Of a stretch of DNA of 34,965 nt, positions 19,141 to 28,372 are shown in pieces (position 1 is the stretch's first letter; every line of letters begins with the position of its first letter). Under the pieces are notes generated by a model that saw only the letters and a list, made by a program, of their open reading frames with translations, was not told where the DNA came from and searched no databases. Source of the stretch: a virus; IMG/VR virus record IMGVR_UViG_3300044646_000939, positions 1 to 34,965 of that record; one strand, written 5' to 3'. The translations under genes were made by a program, and so were the position numbers.

Positions 19141-22100
19141 TTACTCCCTCGGCGGCCCGTAGAGGACCTCGTACATGAACTGCTGCGGACTCTCCGGGTT
19201 CCTCTCGTCGTTCAGAACATCCATCGTATACTCGCCGCTGATCCGTACCTGACGGGTCGGCAAGCCGAAGATGTACCCGCTCGTCTCGAACATATCCCAG
19301 CCAACCTCGTTGAACTCCCGGTTGCCAGCAAGAACATCCGAGGTCTTCGTGAATGTCTTGCCTACCTTCTCAATCGCCCCCGCTACCGGAGTCAACCGCC
19401 AACTCGGCTGGAACTTCATCTCACCTTCGCCAGCCAAGTTTATCATGCTTGCCTCGATGACACCGGAACCCTCCTTAAGGATGGGAATTGAGGCCAGAGG
19501 ATACAGCAGCATCTTGCGGATGGCCCACCAGGTCTCGTCCTCCTCCTCCTCCGGGCCGCGCCCCGCCAGAATCTCGCCCATCACGGCAGGCATGATGACA
19601 AGCGCCAGCATCCGGGCCACCGCCCGAGGCATGTCCTTGACCCGCCGGGTCGTCGCGCCGACATCCCGCATCCGGGCGTAGAGCACCGAGAACGGGGTGT
19701 AGTACATCGTCAGCAGTTTCATCAGCTCGTTGTCGCGCTGGACCGCCGCGAGGTCTTTCGCCCCCCCCGCACCCTGCGAGAGCCGCACCGCCCGGTCACC
19801 CGCCCGAATGGAATCTTCCTCGTTCAGCCCCTCGGCCTGCGCCTGCCGGTACGCGCCGAGCCATGTCGGTATGGTCACCTGCCGGTCAGCCATAGCGGTC
19901 AGGTAGAACGCCGACCGCTGGATGACCGCAAGCGGGCTGCGATCGCCCCGGAGCTTGCGGAGCGAGTCACGCACATCCCGGTCGATGTTGTCGGTGCGGA
20001 ACTTCATCTCGCCCGACCGATCGAACACGAACTGCTCGAGCGTCTCCCGGTGCGCCGACCACGGCCCAAACCGGTTGTAGTCGATAAGCGCCTGGGTGAA
20101 GAATCGGGGTTTCACGACATCGAGCGACGGGCCGATACCGGCAAACTGCGCCATCATCGTCGTCACCTTCCAACCCATCGTAACAATCGCCATGTTCGTG
20201 CGGAACTGCATGACGCCGCGCGAGATGGGATTCCCCGAGTGCAGGGTGTCAGCCCGGTCAGAGACCAGCACCTGCATCCACTTGGTGAACTCCTGATACC
20301 GCGCCTCGCCGAGCCGGTCGATCATGACCTGCTTGATCTCGTCATCCTTCAAGAGCTTGTTCAGCGAGAAGATGGCCTCGCGGTGCGAGATGTCCTTGAT
20401 GACCTTGCCGAGGTGACTCGTCAGCACCTGCTCGTAGTCGAGCCGCACCGGAGCCTTCAAGGTCTCGACGCGCTGCTTCGTGTACCCCTTGTCCGTCCGC
20501 GCCCGACCGTAGCCGTTCGCCATGAACTGCGCCACGGACTCGGTAGCCTCGGCCTGCTTGTCGCCAACCCCAGACAGCCGCGGGTCGTAGGCAAGCGGGA
20601 AGTACCCGCCAGCGTAATCGCCGAACCGAGTCTGCACCGTGCGGGCCTCAACCTTCGGCGGGGCGACGCCGGAGGTACGCTCCTCGAGCGCCTTGATGTC
20701 AGGCCACAGGGAGTTCACCGCATCCCAGATCCCCTGCACATAGTCCCAGTCCTCTTTCGCGAGCTTGGCGAGTGCATCATTGATGGTCGTGTCAGACCAC
20801 CCGTAGCCGTCCCGCAGGCGCTGGTAGTTGCCAGCGTTGCCCGTGTTGAGCGCCATCGAGATGAGCGTGTAGCGGGTGACCGGCGACTGGAGACCAGGCA
20901 GCACCACCGAGAAGGTGTCCTCCAGCGTGTCGCCCCAGCCCTTCGGCTGCTTCTCTGTCAGGTCTTGGATTCGCTTCGTGACCTGCGCGTGTAGCTCGTA
21001 CTCCTTCACCTGCGCATCGTTGGCAAGGTCGAACACAAACCGCGCCCACGGCCCGTTAATCTTGCCGTTATCCAGCCACTCAACCATCTGCTCGACCTTG
21101 AGGATGGCAGCGTCAAACCGCCGCCACGCCTTCGCACCACGCGCCAGCAATGGCTCGCCGACCGTGTTCGGGATGGCAAGTTCCCCAGTCGAGGCAAGCC
21201 GATCGGAGTCGGTCGCCGACTTGATGAGCTCGTCCTTGGTGTCTTGGAACTCTATCGCCGCCTGCTTGCGCAGGAGCTTGTCCTTGAGCTTGGCGATGTG
21301 CTCGATGTTGCGCACCGTGTCGTAGACCGCCCGCAGCTCGTCGACCGGAACGTCCTTGTAGTTGACCATCTTGGCCTCGTCCAAGAGGGCATCCGGCACA
21401 TTGACGATGAGCCCGAGCTGGGCCTGCTGCTCGGCAAAGTCCGCCAGCGCCTGACGCCGAGCCACCGCCCGCATCGATACCTGCCGGAACTCGTACTTCT
21501 CAAGGATGGCGTCGATCTGGTCAAGGTACCCGCCGCCAGCCTTCGCCAGCCGCTCGCGGGTCGCCTTCTTGTCGAACTTCCCGGCGTAGTTGTAGATGGT
21601 GTCGAGCTGGCGCTGCGCCTTCGTTGCCTCGACATACATGTAGTGATTCAGCAACTCGCGTTGCTTTTCGGTCGCAGCCGCCGCGTAATCCTTCCTCTTG
21701 ATGGCATCGAACGCCGCCTTCGACGCCCGACGCTCGGCGAGCAGGTACTTACCAGGCGAGATGTCCCGCGCCATCATCTGCCCGATGCGACCCGCTGCAG
21801 CGCGTTGGAACGCAGCCGGGTCTTCGATAGCAGACGCCACCATGTCAAGCCCAGCCCGGCGCTCCGCAGCCTCGGCTCGGCGTATGCCAGCCACAACCGG
21901 GCGCACCTGCCGCTGTAGGCGCTTGATCGCCTTGAGCTCGGCAGCGATGACCGTCGCCCGCTCGCTGTTGTGGACAGCCAGCATCGCCTCGTCGCCGATC
22001 GTGCCGTCCATCCGCATGTCGCCAAACTCGGTCGCCATCCGGTTGGCAACCTCGGCCTCGATGAGTTGCTTGCGCGGGCGCAGGTTGACAAGCGCCTCCA

Positions 22101-25100
22101 TCAGCGCCTCGCCACTCTCGAACCCGAGTATATCCGCAGCGACATCGACGGTCGTGCCGCCTTCCTTGGTGTAGACCTTCCGCACGGCTCTTGGCAGTCG
22201 CTTCAAGAACTCAGTCCCAAAGCGAGTCTCAAGAGCCTGCCGGGAAAGCTTGATGGGGGTGCCGTCCGGCGTGACACCTTCGGTCAGGATGGCCGCAGCA
22301 CGGTACGCGGGCGAGGCATCCACCTCTGCCGTCACCTTCTCCAACATCTTGGCGCGTTCGCCCTTCCACCACTTCTCGCGCTCGCGTGAATACTCGCGCA
22401 GCAGCTGCGCCTGCAGCTTCTCCTTCGCCCGCTCGTTCGCCCCCTCTGCCGTCTTCTTGTAGGCGGCAAACTCGGCCTCCGTCATCCCGGCGTCTTCCGC
22501 TGTCGAGAACAGGTCCTTGAGGTCGAGCTCGGAGTTCGCCGCCTCAATCTCTTGGTCGGTCGCGTAGATGCGGTCAAACACGCCACGAACCTCATCGTTC
22601 AGCGTGACATCGAGCCGGGTCAGGGTGCGATAGACCAGCGTCATCCATGCCCGCGCCCGCTGGAAGATACCGCGCAGGGCCGCGCTCGGAGCGTTGCCCT
22701 CCATCAGGTACGCCTCGTTCCCTCGCGCAAATATCTCGTGCTGGGCGACGCCGATCTCGGAGCGGTTCTTGACCTTGAACCACTTCATCAGGGTCTCAGC
22801 GTCGGCCTTGATTTGCGGACTCGCGTCAGGCCGCTCGGCAAGGTCGAGCAGCACTTCGAGGTAGAAGTGGCCGGTCTCGTGGATGAAGGTCGAGAGGTCG
22901 GCCTTCTCTAGGAGCCCGATGCGCACCTTGCGATCGGTGCCGAACTGGATGAACCCGCGCTTGTCGTCTGGGGAGACGGCTTGGAAAAATCTCTGGCTAC
23001 TATCCTGCTCAGAAATCAAACGCTCCCAAACTTGCTCCTGTATGGATTGGGACGCTTTAGTTCTTGTTTTTGTTTTGGCTGGAGCCGGGTAAGCCTTTCG
23101 CCATTGATATACAAGTTCCTCGGCTATTCCTTGCCGACGATATTTTTTATCAACAACCAAAGTGTCGCCAAAATTGTAACTAGCTACAACTTGTTTGCCA
23201 TCGTACACAGCAGCGCCATCTTCACTCATCCGAACTGTTAATCCATTCTTGAAAGATTGGACAGGAGCAGATTCAACAGTAGTAAGAGCAATCGGCTTTA
23301 AATTTGCAACATAGCGATTACTTGTGATTTTTGGAGACCCGAGAAATTGCTCCCTCGTCATTCCATTCCAAGTTGCTTTCTGCCCAAACTGCATACCGAC
23401 ATCGCCCATCCCCTCGCTCGCCTTCGCGATCAGCGCCTTGATGGTCGCGTTGTCGGTCGTCGTGATGTCAATGCCCTGCTGACCGAGGTATGTCTCAAGA
23501 CCTTCCAGCGCGTCAGCCAACTCAGCCAGACTTGCCTTCTCCTTGCCCGGCTGGAACACACCCTCACCGCGAATCTCACGGTCGAGCGCATCGAGGAAGG
23601 TCACCTCGGTTTCGCCAACATCGTACCCGGCCTCAAGCGCAATCTCCCGCGCCTGGTCGAACGTCATGCCCTTCTCGGACACCAGCGCCTTCTCACCCAC
23701 CCGGCGGTTGTCGCGGTCCCACAACTTAACATCCCGCGCCCCGAGCTCACCGCCCTGATCCTGCAAGCCACCGCGCTCGCGCAGGAACTCGGTCAGGGAC
23801 TTGCCGAAGATGTCGCGTCTGGTCGGGATATCCCCCGTCCGCAGCCGATCGATGAGCGGGTCGAGCGCCGCATCTATCCCCATCCGCGACTGCAAGATGT
23901 CCGGCAGGGGGGTGACCACGCTGAGACCGTACTGCTCATGCAGGGCGGCAGGGTCGATGCCGCTACGCTGCGCCAGAGCGTTTATGGCGCGTGAGTACAT
24001 GGTCGCGTATGTGTCAGCGGTCGCCCTGTCAAATCGCCCCAGAAGCTGCCCTAGGACGTCCTGCTTGATTGTGGCGATGGCGGGAGCCTCGGCATCGGTG
24101 CCTTCGGCCTCCATAGCCGCTTGAATCTCGGCCTCAACCTCCTTGCGGCGGGCCTCAAGCGCCTCCACCTCCCGCATGGTCAGGTCGCCCTGCGCCAGCC
24201 GGACGTCCTTCATCAGCCCGTTGTGGTGCTGGGTCGGGGCGAGCCGGGTCGCGTAGGTCTCGATGGGGATGATGACGTCGCTGCCGGTGGCGACCGCCTC
24301 GGCGTAGTTGGTCGCGCCGACTTCGTTGGCAATCTGCTCCGGGTCGACGTTCTGGCTCTGCCAGTACTGGGTGAACTGGTCGGCGGGGATGAAGACGTTC
24401 TCGACCGGACCCTGCTCCCGGATGCGGGCGACGTAGTCCTGGAACGTCTGCGGCAACCGCTCGCGGAGCTTCGACTCGCCCGCCGCCTCGCCGAGCGCCT
24501 GCATGAACTGCTGGGTCTGGTTGGCCTTGCGGACCTCCCGCACGTTGCTGACCGCAGAGATCGCCGAACCCGGCAGGCCGACACCAGCACCGCCGGCAAA
24601 CCCCGCCGCGCCGGACTCCAGCACCCGCATCAGGTCGCTGCCTGCCGCCTCCGGCGCGAACTCCTGCCCGCTGACGCCCTGCGCCAACTCGCGCCCGAGG
24701 ATGACCCCGAGCTCTTGCAGCGACTCGGTCACGCCCTCAACGCTTGCAGCCGTCAGCCACTTCTTGCCCGCCTGCGCGATGGCATTGCGGAAGGTCGGAC
24801 GCGCCAGCAGGGTCTTGATGGCCTCCCGAGAGCCTGCACCAACCAGCCGGTCGAGCCCCGGAATCATCTTGGCGAGCGCGATGTCGCCGACCGTCTCGAG
24901 GCCGGCATTCAACAGGCCCGCCGCAGCCGCAGCGCCGCGCGCGACCGCAGGATCGAGCAGCTGGCCGGACTCGTCCCGCATCTGCTCGTACTCGGCGAAC
25001 GCGAACCCGGCCTCGGCCTTGTAGTTGTAGACCGTTGTGGCGGTGATGAACCCTGCGCGACCGCCGAAGAAGAACCCACCGGGGACCGTGACAAGCTCCT

Positions 25101-25755
25101 CCGGCAGCGCCACCTGCGGACCCAGCTGACCGATGAGCGCCGCCGCGCCGGCACCGGCCACAGCGCCGGGAATCGCGCCCTTGACGCCCTCGCGCACCGA
25201 GGACACCAACTGGCGCGCGGTGTAGCCGGTCTGCCCGAGGAACCATGCAACCGGGTTGTCGCCGCGCTCCGGGGTCTTGCCCAGCGCCTGCATGTCGTTG
25301 AGCAGCTTGCGTCTCAATGCCTGTTCAGCGGGCGACATGAATTCGCCAGCAACTGCCCGCCAATTGAGCGGCTCCACCTGGTCCATGATGGAGGCTTGCT
25401 CGATGCCCTGCCCAGCAGCACGGAACGTCCGGTCGATGCGGGTCAGAACGCTGACATCGTCGCGCGCGACATCGGCCTGCTCCGAGAGGAAACTTGCGGT
25501 GACTGGCGAGTCTTTCACCAACCCGTCGTAGTCCACCCCGCCGAGGATGGCCTGACGCTCGATCTCCTTGCGATCGGCCCGCACGGTCTCCACAGGAACC
25601 CTGACCTTCTCGGCGAGCTTGCGAAGCTCGGCCTCGACATCCGGGTTGGTCTGCGCCGCGCCGTACATCGACGAGCGCAGCTCAGCGGCCTGCTCTTGGC
25701 GTATCAGCTCAAGGTACGGATTCTCCTCCTCTATGAGGCGGCGATAGTCCGTCAC
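19141..25755 (-). CDS. Giant internal/ejection polyvalent protein (2204 aa)
   Basis: At 6615 bases it fills 19% of the genome. Order: helical N-terminus with VRVPVETVRADRKEIE; hydrophobic Ala/Gly-rich segments at about 190-300; helical region; residues about 787-925 with a GNAT-like motif (VVDKKYRRQGIAEELVYQW) in an AT-rich patch; a zinc peptidase motif HETGH (about 959-963) in FIHETGHFYLEVLL; a long charged helical region (1080-1650); and an LPD38-like C-terminal part (GVMQFRTNMAIVTMGWK, YYTPFSVLYARMRDVG) with hydrophobic stretches. It stands where T7 gp16 does, so I infer a protein packed in the head and ejected into the envelope. No transglycosylase motif was found. Its ATG overlaps the previous stop. 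Confidence 0.85.
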   Translation of the reverse strand: MTDYRRLIEEENPYLELIRQEQAAELRSSMYGAAQTNPDVEAELRKLAEKVRVPVETVRADRKEIERQAILGGVDYDGLVKDSPVTASFLSEQADVARDDVSVLTRIDRTFRAAGQGIEQASIMDQVEPLNWRAVAGEFMSPAEQALRRKLLNDMQALGKTPERGDNPVAWFLGQTGYTARQLVSSVREGVKGAIPGAVAGAGAAALIGQLGPQVALPEELVTVPGGFFFGGRAGFITATTVYNYKAEAGFAFAEYEQMRDESGQLLDPAVARGAAAAAGLLNAGLETVGDIALAKMIPGLDRLVGAGSREAIKTLLARPTFRNAIAQAGKKWLTAASVEGVTESLQELGVILGRELAQGVSGQEFAPEAAGSDLMRVLESGAAGFAGGAGVGLPGSAISAVSNVREVRKANQTQQFMQALGEAAGESKLRERLPQTFQDYVARIREQGPVENVFIPADQFTQYWQSQNVDPEQIANEVGATNYAEAVATGSDVIIPIETYATRLAPTQHHNGLMKDVRLAQGDLTMREVEALEARRKEVEAEIQAAMEAEGTDAEAPAIATIKQDVLGQLLGRFDRATADTYATMYSRAINALAQRSGIDPAALHEQYGLSVVTPLPDILQSRMGIDAALDPLIDRLRTGDIPTRRDIFGKSLTEFLRERGGLQDQGGELGARDVKLWDRDNRRVGEKALVSEKGMTFDQAREIALEAGYDVGETEVTFLDALDREIRGEGVFQPGKEKASLAELADALEGLETYLGQQGIDITTTDNATIKALIAKASEGMGDVGMQFGQKATWNGMTREQFLGSPKITSNRYVANLKPIALTTVESAPVQSFKNGLTVRMSEDGAAVYDGKQVVASYNFGDTLVVDKKYRRQGIAEELVYQWRKAYPAPAKTKTRTKASQSIQEQVWERLISEQDSSQRFFQAVSPDDKRGFIQFGTDRKVRIGLLEKADLSTFIHETGHFYLEVLLDLAERPDASPQIKADAETLMKWFKVKNRSEIGVAQHEIFARGNEAYLMEGNAPSAALRGIFQRARAWMTLVYRTLTRLDVTLNDEVRGVFDRIYATDQEIEAANSELDLKDLFSTAEDAGMTEAEFAAYKKTAEGANERAKEKLQAQLLREYSREREKWWKGERAKMLEKVTAEVDASPAYRAAAILTEGVTPDGTPIKLSRQALETRFGTEFLKRLPRAVRKVYTKEGGTTVDVAADILGFESGEALMEALVNLRPRKQLIEAEVANRMATEFGDMRMDGTIGDEAMLAVHNSERATVIAAELKAIKRLQRQVRPVVAGIRRAEAAERRAGLDMVASAIEDPAAFQRAAAGRIGQMMARDISPGKYLLAERRASKAAFDAIKRKDYAAAATEKQRELLNHYMYVEATKAQRQLDTIYNYAGKFDKKATRERLAKAGGGYLDQIDAILEKYEFRQVSMRAVARRQALADFAEQQAQLGLIVNVPDALLDEAKMVNYKDVPVDELRAVYDTVRNIEHIAKLKDKLLRKQAAIEFQDTKDELIKSATDSDRLASTGELAIPNTVGEPLLARGAKAWRRFDAAILKVEQMVEWLDNGKINGPWARFVFDLANDAQVKEYELHAQVTKRIQDLTEKQPKGWGDTLEDTFSVVLPGLQSPVTRYTLISMALNTGNAGNYQRLRDGYGWSDTTINDALAKLAKEDWDYVQGIWDAVNSLWPDIKALEERTSGVAPPKVEARTVQTRFGDYAGGYFPLAYDPRLSGVGDKQAEATESVAQFMANGYGRARTDKGYTKQRVETLKAPVRLDYEQVLTSHLGKVIKDISHREAIFSLNKLLKDDEIKQVMIDRLGEARYQEFTKWMQVLVSDRADTLHSGNPISRGVMQFRTNMAIVTMGWKVTTMMAQFAGIGPSLDVVKPRFFTQALIDYNRFGPWSAHRETLEQFVFDRSGEMKFRTDNIDRDVRDSLRKLRGDRSPLAVIQRSAFYLTAMADRQVTIPTWLGAYRQAQAEGLNEEDSIRAGDRAVRLSQGAGGAKDLAAVQRDNELMKLLTMYYTPFSVLYARMRDVGATTRRVKDMPRAVARMLALVIMPAVMGEILAGRGPEEEEDETWWAIRKMLLYPLASIPILKEGSGVIEASMINLAGEGEMKFQPSWRLTPVAGAIEKVGKTFTKTSDVLAGNREFNEVGWDMFETSGYIFGLPTRQVRISGEYTMDVLNDERNPESPQQFMYEVLYGPPRE

Positions 25756-27398
25756 TTTGGCCGTCCTTTCAGCTTGAGGAAGAGCGCCCGGATGTTCTGG
25801 TCATTCACTTCCCTGCCGGTAGCGCGCAGCGCATCGATGATATCTCGCCGATCGGCATCAGGAATCACGACCTCTTGCTCAGGCGTGACCTCAAACAGCA
25901 TCACCTCATTGGAACCATACAATCTGCCACGGATTTCCACATTGGAGAACAGCTTGTCGATCAACATGTTCCGCTCCACGGGCGTCAACTTGCGACCCAA
26001 CGCCCGCTCCTCATCGGCAATATTCATGTCCAACATCGAATACGCCTGTGCAACACGCGTAGCCTGTTTCGTTCCCGGCTTCGGGCTGGGGTCAATGCCA
26101 ATCTCCGTCAGGCGCATGTTCATCCGCTGCGTCGTGGTCTGGATTTCCGTCTGCACTACCTCCGGCGCGTTCGTCAGATCCGCCTGCAACCGCGCCAGCT
26201 CCTTGAACTCCGTGTCCTCAAGCACACCACGCAGCGCCAGCAAATCGGTCTGCCTCAGCAACTGCGGGGTGGTCCGCAGTTTGTAATAGGTTCCCCAGTC
26301 GGTCTCGACCTTGCCAACGCCGCGCAGACTGTCCGCGTAGTTGCGAACCTGACCGATCTTGTCGCCGGGAATCGCCCTTCGCACCGACGCAGGCAGCGCG
26401 GCAAAATTGCCGCCGTTCGCATCCAGCATACCGATGGCACTAGCCACGGCCTCCTGCTGCGCCCGCTCACGGTCGCGCAACTTCGAGTTCAGTTGCGCCA
26501 ACGCCTCCTGCGTAGCGTCGTCGCGCACCCGCACATTGTCCCCGGCAATCTCGCGCACCTTCTGGCGCACCTCGGTCTCGCTCGGGATGCGACCGCCGAA
26601 CGACCCAATCACATCGTCCGCGATACGCGCAGACGCCCGCAGGTCGGTCTCGGTCGCCACCTTGCCCTCGAGCTCCACGAGCCGCGGAGCCTTGATGGTC
26701 GACCGGTTGCGGTCGATGTACTGCGCAGCAAACTCTACATCCCCAGAATCGAGCGCCGAATTGACCACCGCCGCGTGTATCTGATCCACATTGTCCATCT
26801 GCACCGCCAGCAGCGCGTCCCCGGTGATGCCGTTGCGGTCAGCCCAGAGCGCCGTGTTCGCCACGATGCGCCCGATGCTATCGTTCACCTTCGCCTGGTC
26901 GCGCCAGTTCAGCGCCGCCACATTGGTCTCAGTCTTGACCGTTCCCTCGTAGACGTTATCCCGGTACTGGTCGGTCTCGCGCAGAACATGCCGCATCAGA
27001 GAGTCATCGAACTCAGCCTTCGCCATCCCAGCGCGACGCCGGAAAAGGTCTTGCTGACGGGAATTCGGAAGTTCTGCCGCAACCTGCTCAATCACCTTGT
27101 CGAAGTCGCCCGAGTACCGCGTCATGAAATCCGGCGCAACCGCATCGGCCGCTTTCTTCGATGCAAACCCCGTCTCCGGGTTCATCATCAAGTCGGTCTG
27201 CCGGTCTCGCAGCTGGTTGAACGCATCCTCTACCCGCAACTGGTCGAGGTCTGCCGACAACTTCCCAAACGCCGTAGCACCACGCGCCACAGCCTCGGCA
27301 GTCTCCACCGCTTGAGTCCCCACAGCCGCAAGCCCGCGAGCGCTTGGAGTCGCGATGCGCGGGACAACCTGTTGGCGGTAAAACTCAAGCTTTGCCAT
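25752..27398 (-). CDS. Internal virion/ejection protein, gp15-like (548 aa)
   Basis: The product opens MAKLEFYRQQVVPRIATPS and is almost wholly charged helix, with long Ala/Glu/Gln-rich stretches (FGKLSADLDQLRVEDAFNQL) and no membrane segment or catalytic motif. Position between the gp14-like and giant proteins is that of T7 gp15, which forms part of the trans-envelope ejection tube. The C-terminal 100 residues (EERALGRKLTPVERNMLIDKL) are also helical. Function assigned from order and composition. Confidence 0.78.
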   Translation of the reverse strand: MAKLEFYRQQVVPRIATPSARGLAAVGTQAVETAEAVARGATAFGKLSADLDQLRVEDAFNQLRDRQTDLMMNPETGFASKKAADAVAPDFMTRYSGDFDKVIEQVAAELPNSRQQDLFRRRAGMAKAEFDDSLMRHVLRETDQYRDNVYEGTVKTETNVAALNWRDQAKVNDSIGRIVANTALWADRNGITGDALLAVQMDNVDQIHAAVVNSALDSGDVEFAAQYIDRNRSTIKAPRLVELEGKVATETDLRASARIADDVIGSFGGRIPSETEVRQKVREIAGDNVRVRDDATQEALAQLNSKLRDRERAQQEAVASAIGMLDANGGNFAALPASVRRAIPGDKIGQVRNYADSLRGVGKVETDWGTYYKLRTTPQLLRQTDLLALRGVLEDTEFKELARLQADLTNAPEVVQTEIQTTTQRMNMRLTEIGIDPSPKPGTKQATRVAQAYSMLDMNIADEERALGRKLTPVERNMLIDKLFSNVEIRGRLYGSNEVMLFEVTPEQEVVIPDADRRDIIDALRATGREVNDQNIRALFLKLKGRPK

Positions 27399-27401
27399 GT
27401 A

Positions 27402-27947
27402 TCACCTTGGGCCGATTCGCCGAGATGGTGCCGTTGTCATCGTGGTCGGCACTCGCCGCCCGGTCACCTGTACGCCGGTCAGCTGCGACGATCGCGGACT
27501 GCGAGAAGGCAGCGTACCACCCGCCCCGGCGTACCCGCCCATGCCAGCTGCCCCGGCTTGCAGGATGCCCTGCACCCACGACGGACGCGAGGCACGGGTG
27601 ATGCTAGCCTCGGTCAGCAATCCCTGCGCCTGCGTCTCGCCCTGATAGGCAAGGGACAGCGCATCAAGTTCAGCCGCGGTCGCCGCCTGCTTGTACACAT
27701 CGCCGAAGGTCACCGAGTCCAGAAGGCCAGCCTGACCGCCCGCAGCCCGCAGTTCACCGAACTGCCGCCGCGTCTCGCGCCCGAGCGCCTCAGTCTCAAG
27801 GCCAGCCTGCCGCCGAGCAACACCGGCCTCGACTTCAAGAGCCTGCGCTTGAGCCTTTCCAATGGCTCGCTGCTGGCCGGTAGCCATCAGAGATGACCCT
27901 GCCGATGCTGCCGCCGCCAACAACGCTATCGTTACCGGGTCTGCCAT
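27402..27947 (-). CDS. Internal virion protein, gp14-like (181 aa)
   Basis: The N-terminus MADPVTIALLAAAASAGSS is a hydrophobic Ala-rich helix, followed by a Gln/Ala/Glu-rich helix (RAIGKAQAQALEVEAGVARRQ) and a Gly/Ser/Arg-rich tail. This pattern is common to podovirus gp14-type proteins that insert into the outer membrane on ejection. It precedes the other two ejection genes. ATG 27947 overlaps the GNAT stop (TGATG). Confidence 0.8.
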   Translation of the reverse strand: MADPVTIALLAAAASAGSSLMATGQQRAIGKAQAQALEVEAGVARRQAGLETEALGRETRRQFGELRAAGGQAGLLDSVTFGDVYKQAATAAELDALSLAYQGETQAQGLLTEASITRASRPSWVQGILQAGAAGMGGYAGAGGTLPSRSPRSSQLTGVQVTGRRVPTTMTTAPSRRIGPR

Positions 27948-28372
27948 CAGAGTACCCTCGCGTACATATCCATATCTTGACCTCGCTGGAAGGCTCGCAT
28001 CCGGCCCTCATGTTCAAACCCAAGCATTCTTGCCCATCGGTGAGCTGGCATAAAGTCCGGCACTACATATGCCTCGACACGCTCAATCTCGCACCGCAGC
28101 AAAAACCGCAACACCGCCCGGTGCAACGGCCTCATGCTCCGGCCTGCGTCCCACGACAACAGCGCCCACGCTGAACCCCGCCCAGCCCAGAGGTTCACCA
28201 CCCCGGCGCAGCAGATGATCCGGTCATCGCGCCAGACCGTATAGCACGGCCCCGCCTCAACCAACTCCTGCCCGTAGCCGGGACGCCCGACAAAGGCAGA
28301 CAGGTACTCCTGCGAAGGCTGCAGCCGCAGCTCGTCAAGGTCAGCCGGTCGGAACTTGCGTACCTCAATCAC
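27947..28372 (-). CDS. GNAT-fold acetyltransferase-like protein, gp13 position (141 aa)
   Basis: The protein starts VIEVRKFRPADLDELRL, has a beta region (DRIICCAGVVNLW) and a C-terminal GNAT signature (AHRWARMLGFEHEGRMRAF ... DMYARVL). The usual acetyl-CoA loop QxxGxG/A is not clear (SWDAGRSMRPLHRA may stand in for it), so it could be a non-catalytic form. It lies between tail tube B and internal proteins, where many podoviruses encode a gp13-like GNAT. The start is GTG overlapping the preceding TGA. Confidence 0.8.
   Translation of the reverse strand: MIEVRKFRPADLDELRLQPSQEYLSAFVGRPGYGQELVEAGPCYTVWRDDRIICCAGVVNLWAGRGSAWALLSWDAGRSMRPLHRAVLRFLLRCEIERVEAYVVPDFMPAHRWARMLGFEHEGRMRAFQRGQDMDMYARVL

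Follow-up and report, generated by a model that had tools for sequence, protein, structure and literature searches.

In the window, that is, the whole stretch of 34,965 nucleotides of viral DNA analysed here, a giant gene carries a GNAT-like cassette at a site where close relatives carry other domains. Judged from the dS values, the divergence of the flanking gene was shown to be much older than the entry of the cassette into this lineage. We think it probable that the cassette is a mobile protein domain in a dedicated cargo slot, carried by a polyvalent protein of a podovirus, and that its product is an injected effector released by the zincin at a tag. The features concerned are listed in Table 1.

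Table 1. Features of the giant gene, its cassette and the neighbouring genes in the window
Feature	Position	Strand
Polyvalent / ejection-module protein, 2204 residues, phrog_9880, N-terminal LPD22	19141..25755	-
Zincin-like metallopeptidase (MPTase) region, DKRGFIQF onward	22546..22965	-
HETGH, HExxH metal-binding motif of zincin	22867..22881	-
FFQ, right slot-border tag, 6 residues ahead of KRGFIQF	22981..22989	-
GNAT-like cassette, residues 793-925, 42.6% G+C, C-terminal FFQ tag included	22981..23379	-
RRQGIA, acetyl-CoA pyrophosphate-binding loop (R-x-x-G-x-[AG])	23122..23139	-
FGQ, left slot-border tag (hydrophobic-x-Q)	23380..23388	-
phrog_10475/1044 structural-lysozyme/endolysin-like protein	25752..27398	-
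T7 gp14-like internal virion protein	27402..27947	-
phrog_4177 protein, weakly matching internal virion protein phrog_308	27947..28372	-

The comparison with relatives shows that a conserved N-terminal part is followed by the cargo slot and then by the zincin metallopeptidase, and that unrelated domains occupy the slot in different phages. The proposed mechanism is as follows. From the protein family and the gene context, we infer that the giant protein may be packaged in the virion and go into the cell with the phage DNA, where the GNAT cargo would acetylate a host protein early in infection. The tags would bound the cargo and the adjacent zincin would cut at Gln; that is, any domain placed between two tags would be freed as a separate effector.

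The gene lies within a podovirus virion module that contains gp14-like and lysozyme-like genes, tail proteins and a tail fibre, and its own place is between the gp14-like/lysozyme genes and the tail fibre. The zincin region possesses HETGH and the conserved HExFARxxEAY with the downstream Glu. The domains are disparate: LPD22, the GNAT-like domain and the zincin occur in the window, and ART, PBECR5, RadC, DUF7178 and LPD3 occur in relatives. A literature search found no proteomics for this protein family, and in the BPP-1 and Ab31 papers the searched passages gave no data on the giant protein.

The original prediction held that the cassette lies in a slot for swappable effector domains, and this was largely borne out by alignment of the homologues. 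We recovered 12 close homologues or fragments; their best segments are 82-93% identical, with a short fragment at 98%. In all homologues spanning the region, a conserved left flank with an F-x-Q tag at its end and a right flank KRG[FY]IQFG...STFIHETGH bracket a variable segment. It is only this segment that is exchanged among close homologues; relatives with flanks 78-96% identical have the slot empty or filled with other domains, and its length ranges from 3 (empty) to 1352. The GNAT-like cassette occupies the slot in the window, L002, L004 and L005, whereas L003 and L012 have a domain of 122 residues that belongs to no known family, L006 has DUF7178 (weakly matched also in L008/L010), L007 has PBECR5, and L009/L011 have a set of 1338 residues that includes RadC and DUF7178. 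Among more distant relatives, the slot holds PBECR5 in L021 and LPD3 in L062 and is empty in L022, L061 and L063; L018 combines ART-PolyVal with this GNAT in tandem, and L071 corresponds to L064 plus an ART cassette. Isolated relatives include Pseudomonas phage UFJF_PfDIW6, whose slot is empty, and Cobetia phage Carin1. Between the window and L003 the flanks are 92/96% identical and the cassettes are different; between L008 and L009 the flanks are 96/96% identical and the occupants have 437 vs 1338 residues; between the window and L004 the flanks are 84/91% identical and the cassette is the same. In the near-identical Xanthomonas phages CP2 and SAC (96.8% and 98.3% identity on the two sides), the GNAT is present and cleanly absent, respectively, and the difference is an in-frame 411-base insert with QGG at both ends. 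An origin by a diversity-generating retroelement was rejected, because the occupants are unrelated domains and not mutated copies.

Two occupants can be noted as candidate effectors: that of L003:5769-6176 (also in L012), whose best Pfam E value of 0.0015 is below the cut-off, and that of L053:6465-8012, which has no credible Pfam match. A second HExxH (HEVLH) is found upstream of the slot in the Xanthomonas phage proteins L024, L025 and L028. The last of these, from Xanthomonas phage Alcala, also has an ART-like stretch (VYHGG...FSTDPKYAEGY) that interrupts the zincin after HEMGH and ahead of the downstream Glu motif; CP2 and SAC lack this insertion.

The borders of the slot are marked by a hydrophobic-x-Gln tag, and from the sequence pattern we infer that this tag may be the cutting site of the zincin. 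We scanned the 24 residues ahead of the RG opening the zincin in 63 non-redundant zincin relatives. The tag was found in 58 of the 63 (20 expected), and the remaining 5 had none in the scanned stretch; the strict form [LIFVM][FYN]Q was found in 38 of 63, against 2.2 expected and at most 8 in shuffled linkers, with variable spacing to the zincin. Parallel control motifs with E, K or N in place of the Gln were not enriched in the same 63 relatives. In zincin proteins, every GNAT copy has the tag downstream, and also upstream except in CP2, where an adjacent upstream Gln stands without the hydrophobic residue. The edges of the GNAT copies in L038, L045, L047 and L049, which have no zincin, carry no tag; L039/L040 show only incidental downstream matches; and L042, whose truncated contig contains no zincin, has LEQ and LAQ.

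The tag also ends all 11 ART domains in proteins of this zincin class (S-T-[FL]-x-H-E-x-x-H), including ART domains upstream of other cargo with no zincin directly after. Among ART-bearing phage proteins at large, Gln stands at the fourth position of the ART tail in 9/9 of those scored that have this zincin class and in 8/57 of the others (p = 7e-7), in a comparison that is confounded by kinship of the proteins and leaves out L196 (without the tail Gln) and L177 (not scorable). Outside this zincin class, Ser is the commonest residue (28 of 57). In L133, L143, L145, L156, L170 and others without this zincin class, the ART tails are often [FY]S/KS (IRFSR, IRYS, ITKS), and these perhaps form another tag, one that a different protease would recognise. 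It is quite possible, if tentative, that polyvalent proteins in general are punctuated polyproteins, in which the tag ends the cargo and the S-T-[FL]-x-H-E-x-x-H zincin cuts, and others use other tags (often Ser). If this is true, domains travelling with the tag could plug in anywhere and be released automatically.

A somewhat doubtful alternative is that the tag is a flexible linker or a recombination seam that eases the exchange of cassettes, and no protease site. The tag is indeed located at the exchange seams, including the two QGG ends of the CP2 insert, and an unbiased test at BLAST module ends, in which the tag was found at 56 of 739 ends vs 41.9 at random (maximum 64), showed no clear enrichment. 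This is a negative result and counts against the cleavage reading, although ends that fall in diverged backbone are probably noise. The linker or seam reading is opposed by the codons of the tag, which vary among relatives while the residues persist, by the lack of enrichment of the E, K and N variants, and by the fact that the tag follows the zincin class across unrelated domains. In the AlphaFold2 model, FFQ lies in a low-confidence strand beside the zincin sheet, which speaks neither for nor against a substrate-like pose. Phage P1 DdrB, the processing of which is reportedly known, was dropped as a test of the tag, since it has a zincin of a different class (WHELGH), which makes it uninformative. 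One exact form of the tag, NILYQ, was not found in a full-text search of open-licence papers.

With regard to the cargo itself, the predicted acetyl-CoA-binding motif RRQGIA was located after VVDKKY. It corresponds to [QR]-x-x-G-x-[GA] after beta4, and R-x-x-G-x-[AG] is kept in 13 of 13 aligned homologues. The AlphaFold2 model is confident (pLDDT 88.9) and suggests a GNAT-like fold; the elements are in the order beta-beta-beta-beta-alpha-(beta)-alpha without recognisable beta6-beta7. The leading Foldseek matches were mostly GNATs but weak (best PDB E 0.13), and the BFVD match A0A6J5L8E8 (NAT_SF) had a probability of 0.96 and a TM of 0.42. All Pfam matches were to GNAT families, with E<=0.05 for 9 of the 13 members, and curated cut-offs were missed (PF13508, 20.2 bits vs 27; PF13673, 19.2 vs 23.6). 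Thus, because no Pfam model reaches its curated cut-off, the cassette looks like a minimal, divergent GNAT of about 110-125 residues. A pattern scan of 84,980 prokaryote genomes yielded no confirmed relatives of this GNAT, none were found in plasmids, and PADLOC gave no match. An ART neighbour in the same polypeptide, the mark of the ART-linked GNAT family 1 of Iyer et al., is absent from the window protein but occurs in the relatives L018/L041, L043 and L044.

The cassette could also be a fold of GNAT descent that is no longer catalytic and serves as a binding or spacer module, in line with the minimal fold and the weak family scores; we regard this as unlikely, given the retention of R-x-x-G-x-[AG] in all aligned homologues, the stand-alone copy included, and a cassette dN/dS below 1. 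As a precedent for an acting phage GNAT, Rac of phiKMV acts on RNA polymerase alpha (PMC7824862); it may be taken as such a precedent and is no evidence of the target here. The stand-alone copy, from a 212 kb phage (L045, 7914-8399), is a 162-residue version of this GNAT with a short N-terminal leader MKKNLTEEIKRMRELAGINEAK; the G+C of its locus is about 0.3. In the window, the 141-residue phrog_4177 neighbour also shows faint acyltransferase matches (PF00583, E 0.096; phrog_4470, E 0.074).

The cassette was originally recognised as an AT-rich, in-frame patch between GC-rich flanks. Exact recounting of positions 23101-23340 gave the same 98 G+C of 240. No stop interrupts the reading frame, and of all 240-base windows in the 34965-base record the lowest (96/240; mean 149, sd 12) fall within the patch. 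We set the borders by comparison with relatives, from just after FGQ through FFQ. Of the extent first proposed, about 139 residues (787-925), the C-terminal end at 925 was retained and the start moved to 793, giving 133 residues; HETGH lies just downstream, as described. The cassette (399 bases) has 42.6% G+C vs 64.6% in the remainder of its gene, and its third-position G+C is 0.378 vs 0.84 on either side. Every slot occupant in the close set is AT-richer than its own backbone, and the distant, BPP-1-like L048 is a second low-G+C case (0.485 vs 0.64). In CP2, the GNAT cassette has a G+C of 0.66, which is the phage's own; thus, the domain is not AT-rich as such, and the low G+C of the window copy is a mark of where that copy came from.

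The recent gain that had been suspected agrees with the dS values, which make the window cassette 4-5 times younger than its flanks (0.09-0.10 vs 0.40-0.54). Comparing the window with L004, the cassette dS was 0.086 and the flank values were 0.476/0.398; over L004 and L002 together, the ranges were 0.086-0.098 in the cassette and 0.40-0.54 in 900 bases on each side. Between L002 and L004, the values were 0.010 and 0.186/0.250. The Fisher test on raw differences, cassette vs flanks, gave p = 3e-8 and 1.5e-6. The flanks of the window are nearest to L003, which has the other cassette; those of L002, L004 and L005 are farther, yet the cassette is the same. For L003-L012 the cassette is just slightly younger than the flanks, and for L009-L011 it is more diverged than they are, meaning that exchange has not been uniformly recent. 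It is very improbable that the patch is an ordinary compositional fluctuation in an old segment that was inherited vertically and that relatives have lost: the same cassette does occur in three other contigs (of which L002 and L005 appear identical in the part compared), but the patch has the lowest G+C of the window, and both the cassette dS far below the flank dS and the unrelated replacements at the same site contradict this explanation.

Polyvalent proteins with GNAT and ART domains, and an MPTase proposed to separate the domains, were described by Iyer et al. 2017 (PMC5512222). The present protein resembles them in being large and multidomain, in its late-gene context, and in its zincin MPTase, LPD and effector-type domains (GNAT, ART, PBECR, RadC). 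Beyond that description, one site is exchanged among near-identical phages, the age difference is measured, and a candidate cleavage tag is offered; the LFQ motif is not mentioned in that paper. Thus, polyvalent proteins and zincin processing had already been proposed; what looks new is the evidence at population level, together with the tag. The cassette shares with the RimI-like GNATs of polyvalent proteins the acetyl-CoA loop, the beta4-alpha3 core and, in several relatives, the ART neighbour, but differs from them in its minimal size and in falling under every Pfam cut-off. With gp14-like and internal virion proteins encoded nearby, the setting is like that of the T7 gp14-gp15-gp16 ejection proteins, of which gp16 gets to the host cytoplasm (PMC8954989); unlike gp16, to which no family match was found, the giant protein is much larger and has cargo domains. 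As in polymorphic toxins and MuF, effector domains are exchanged on a constant carrier, but here the cargo is internal, upstream of the protease and followed by 1279 residues, and is not a C-terminal toxin.

These findings would mean that a phage protein, probably an ejected one, has been caught in the act of exchanging effectors at a defined site. The slot occupants, including the unassigned ones of L003/L012 and L053, could be searched for enzymes with early anti-host or counter-defence roles, and the tag makes the 2017 proposal of zincin release testable at a single residue. Among the relatives, Limnohabitans phage DC33 (L033, PQ492659) is filed under Inoviridae, yet it has a 39 kb genome and a podovirus-type giant protein, and this label looks wrong.
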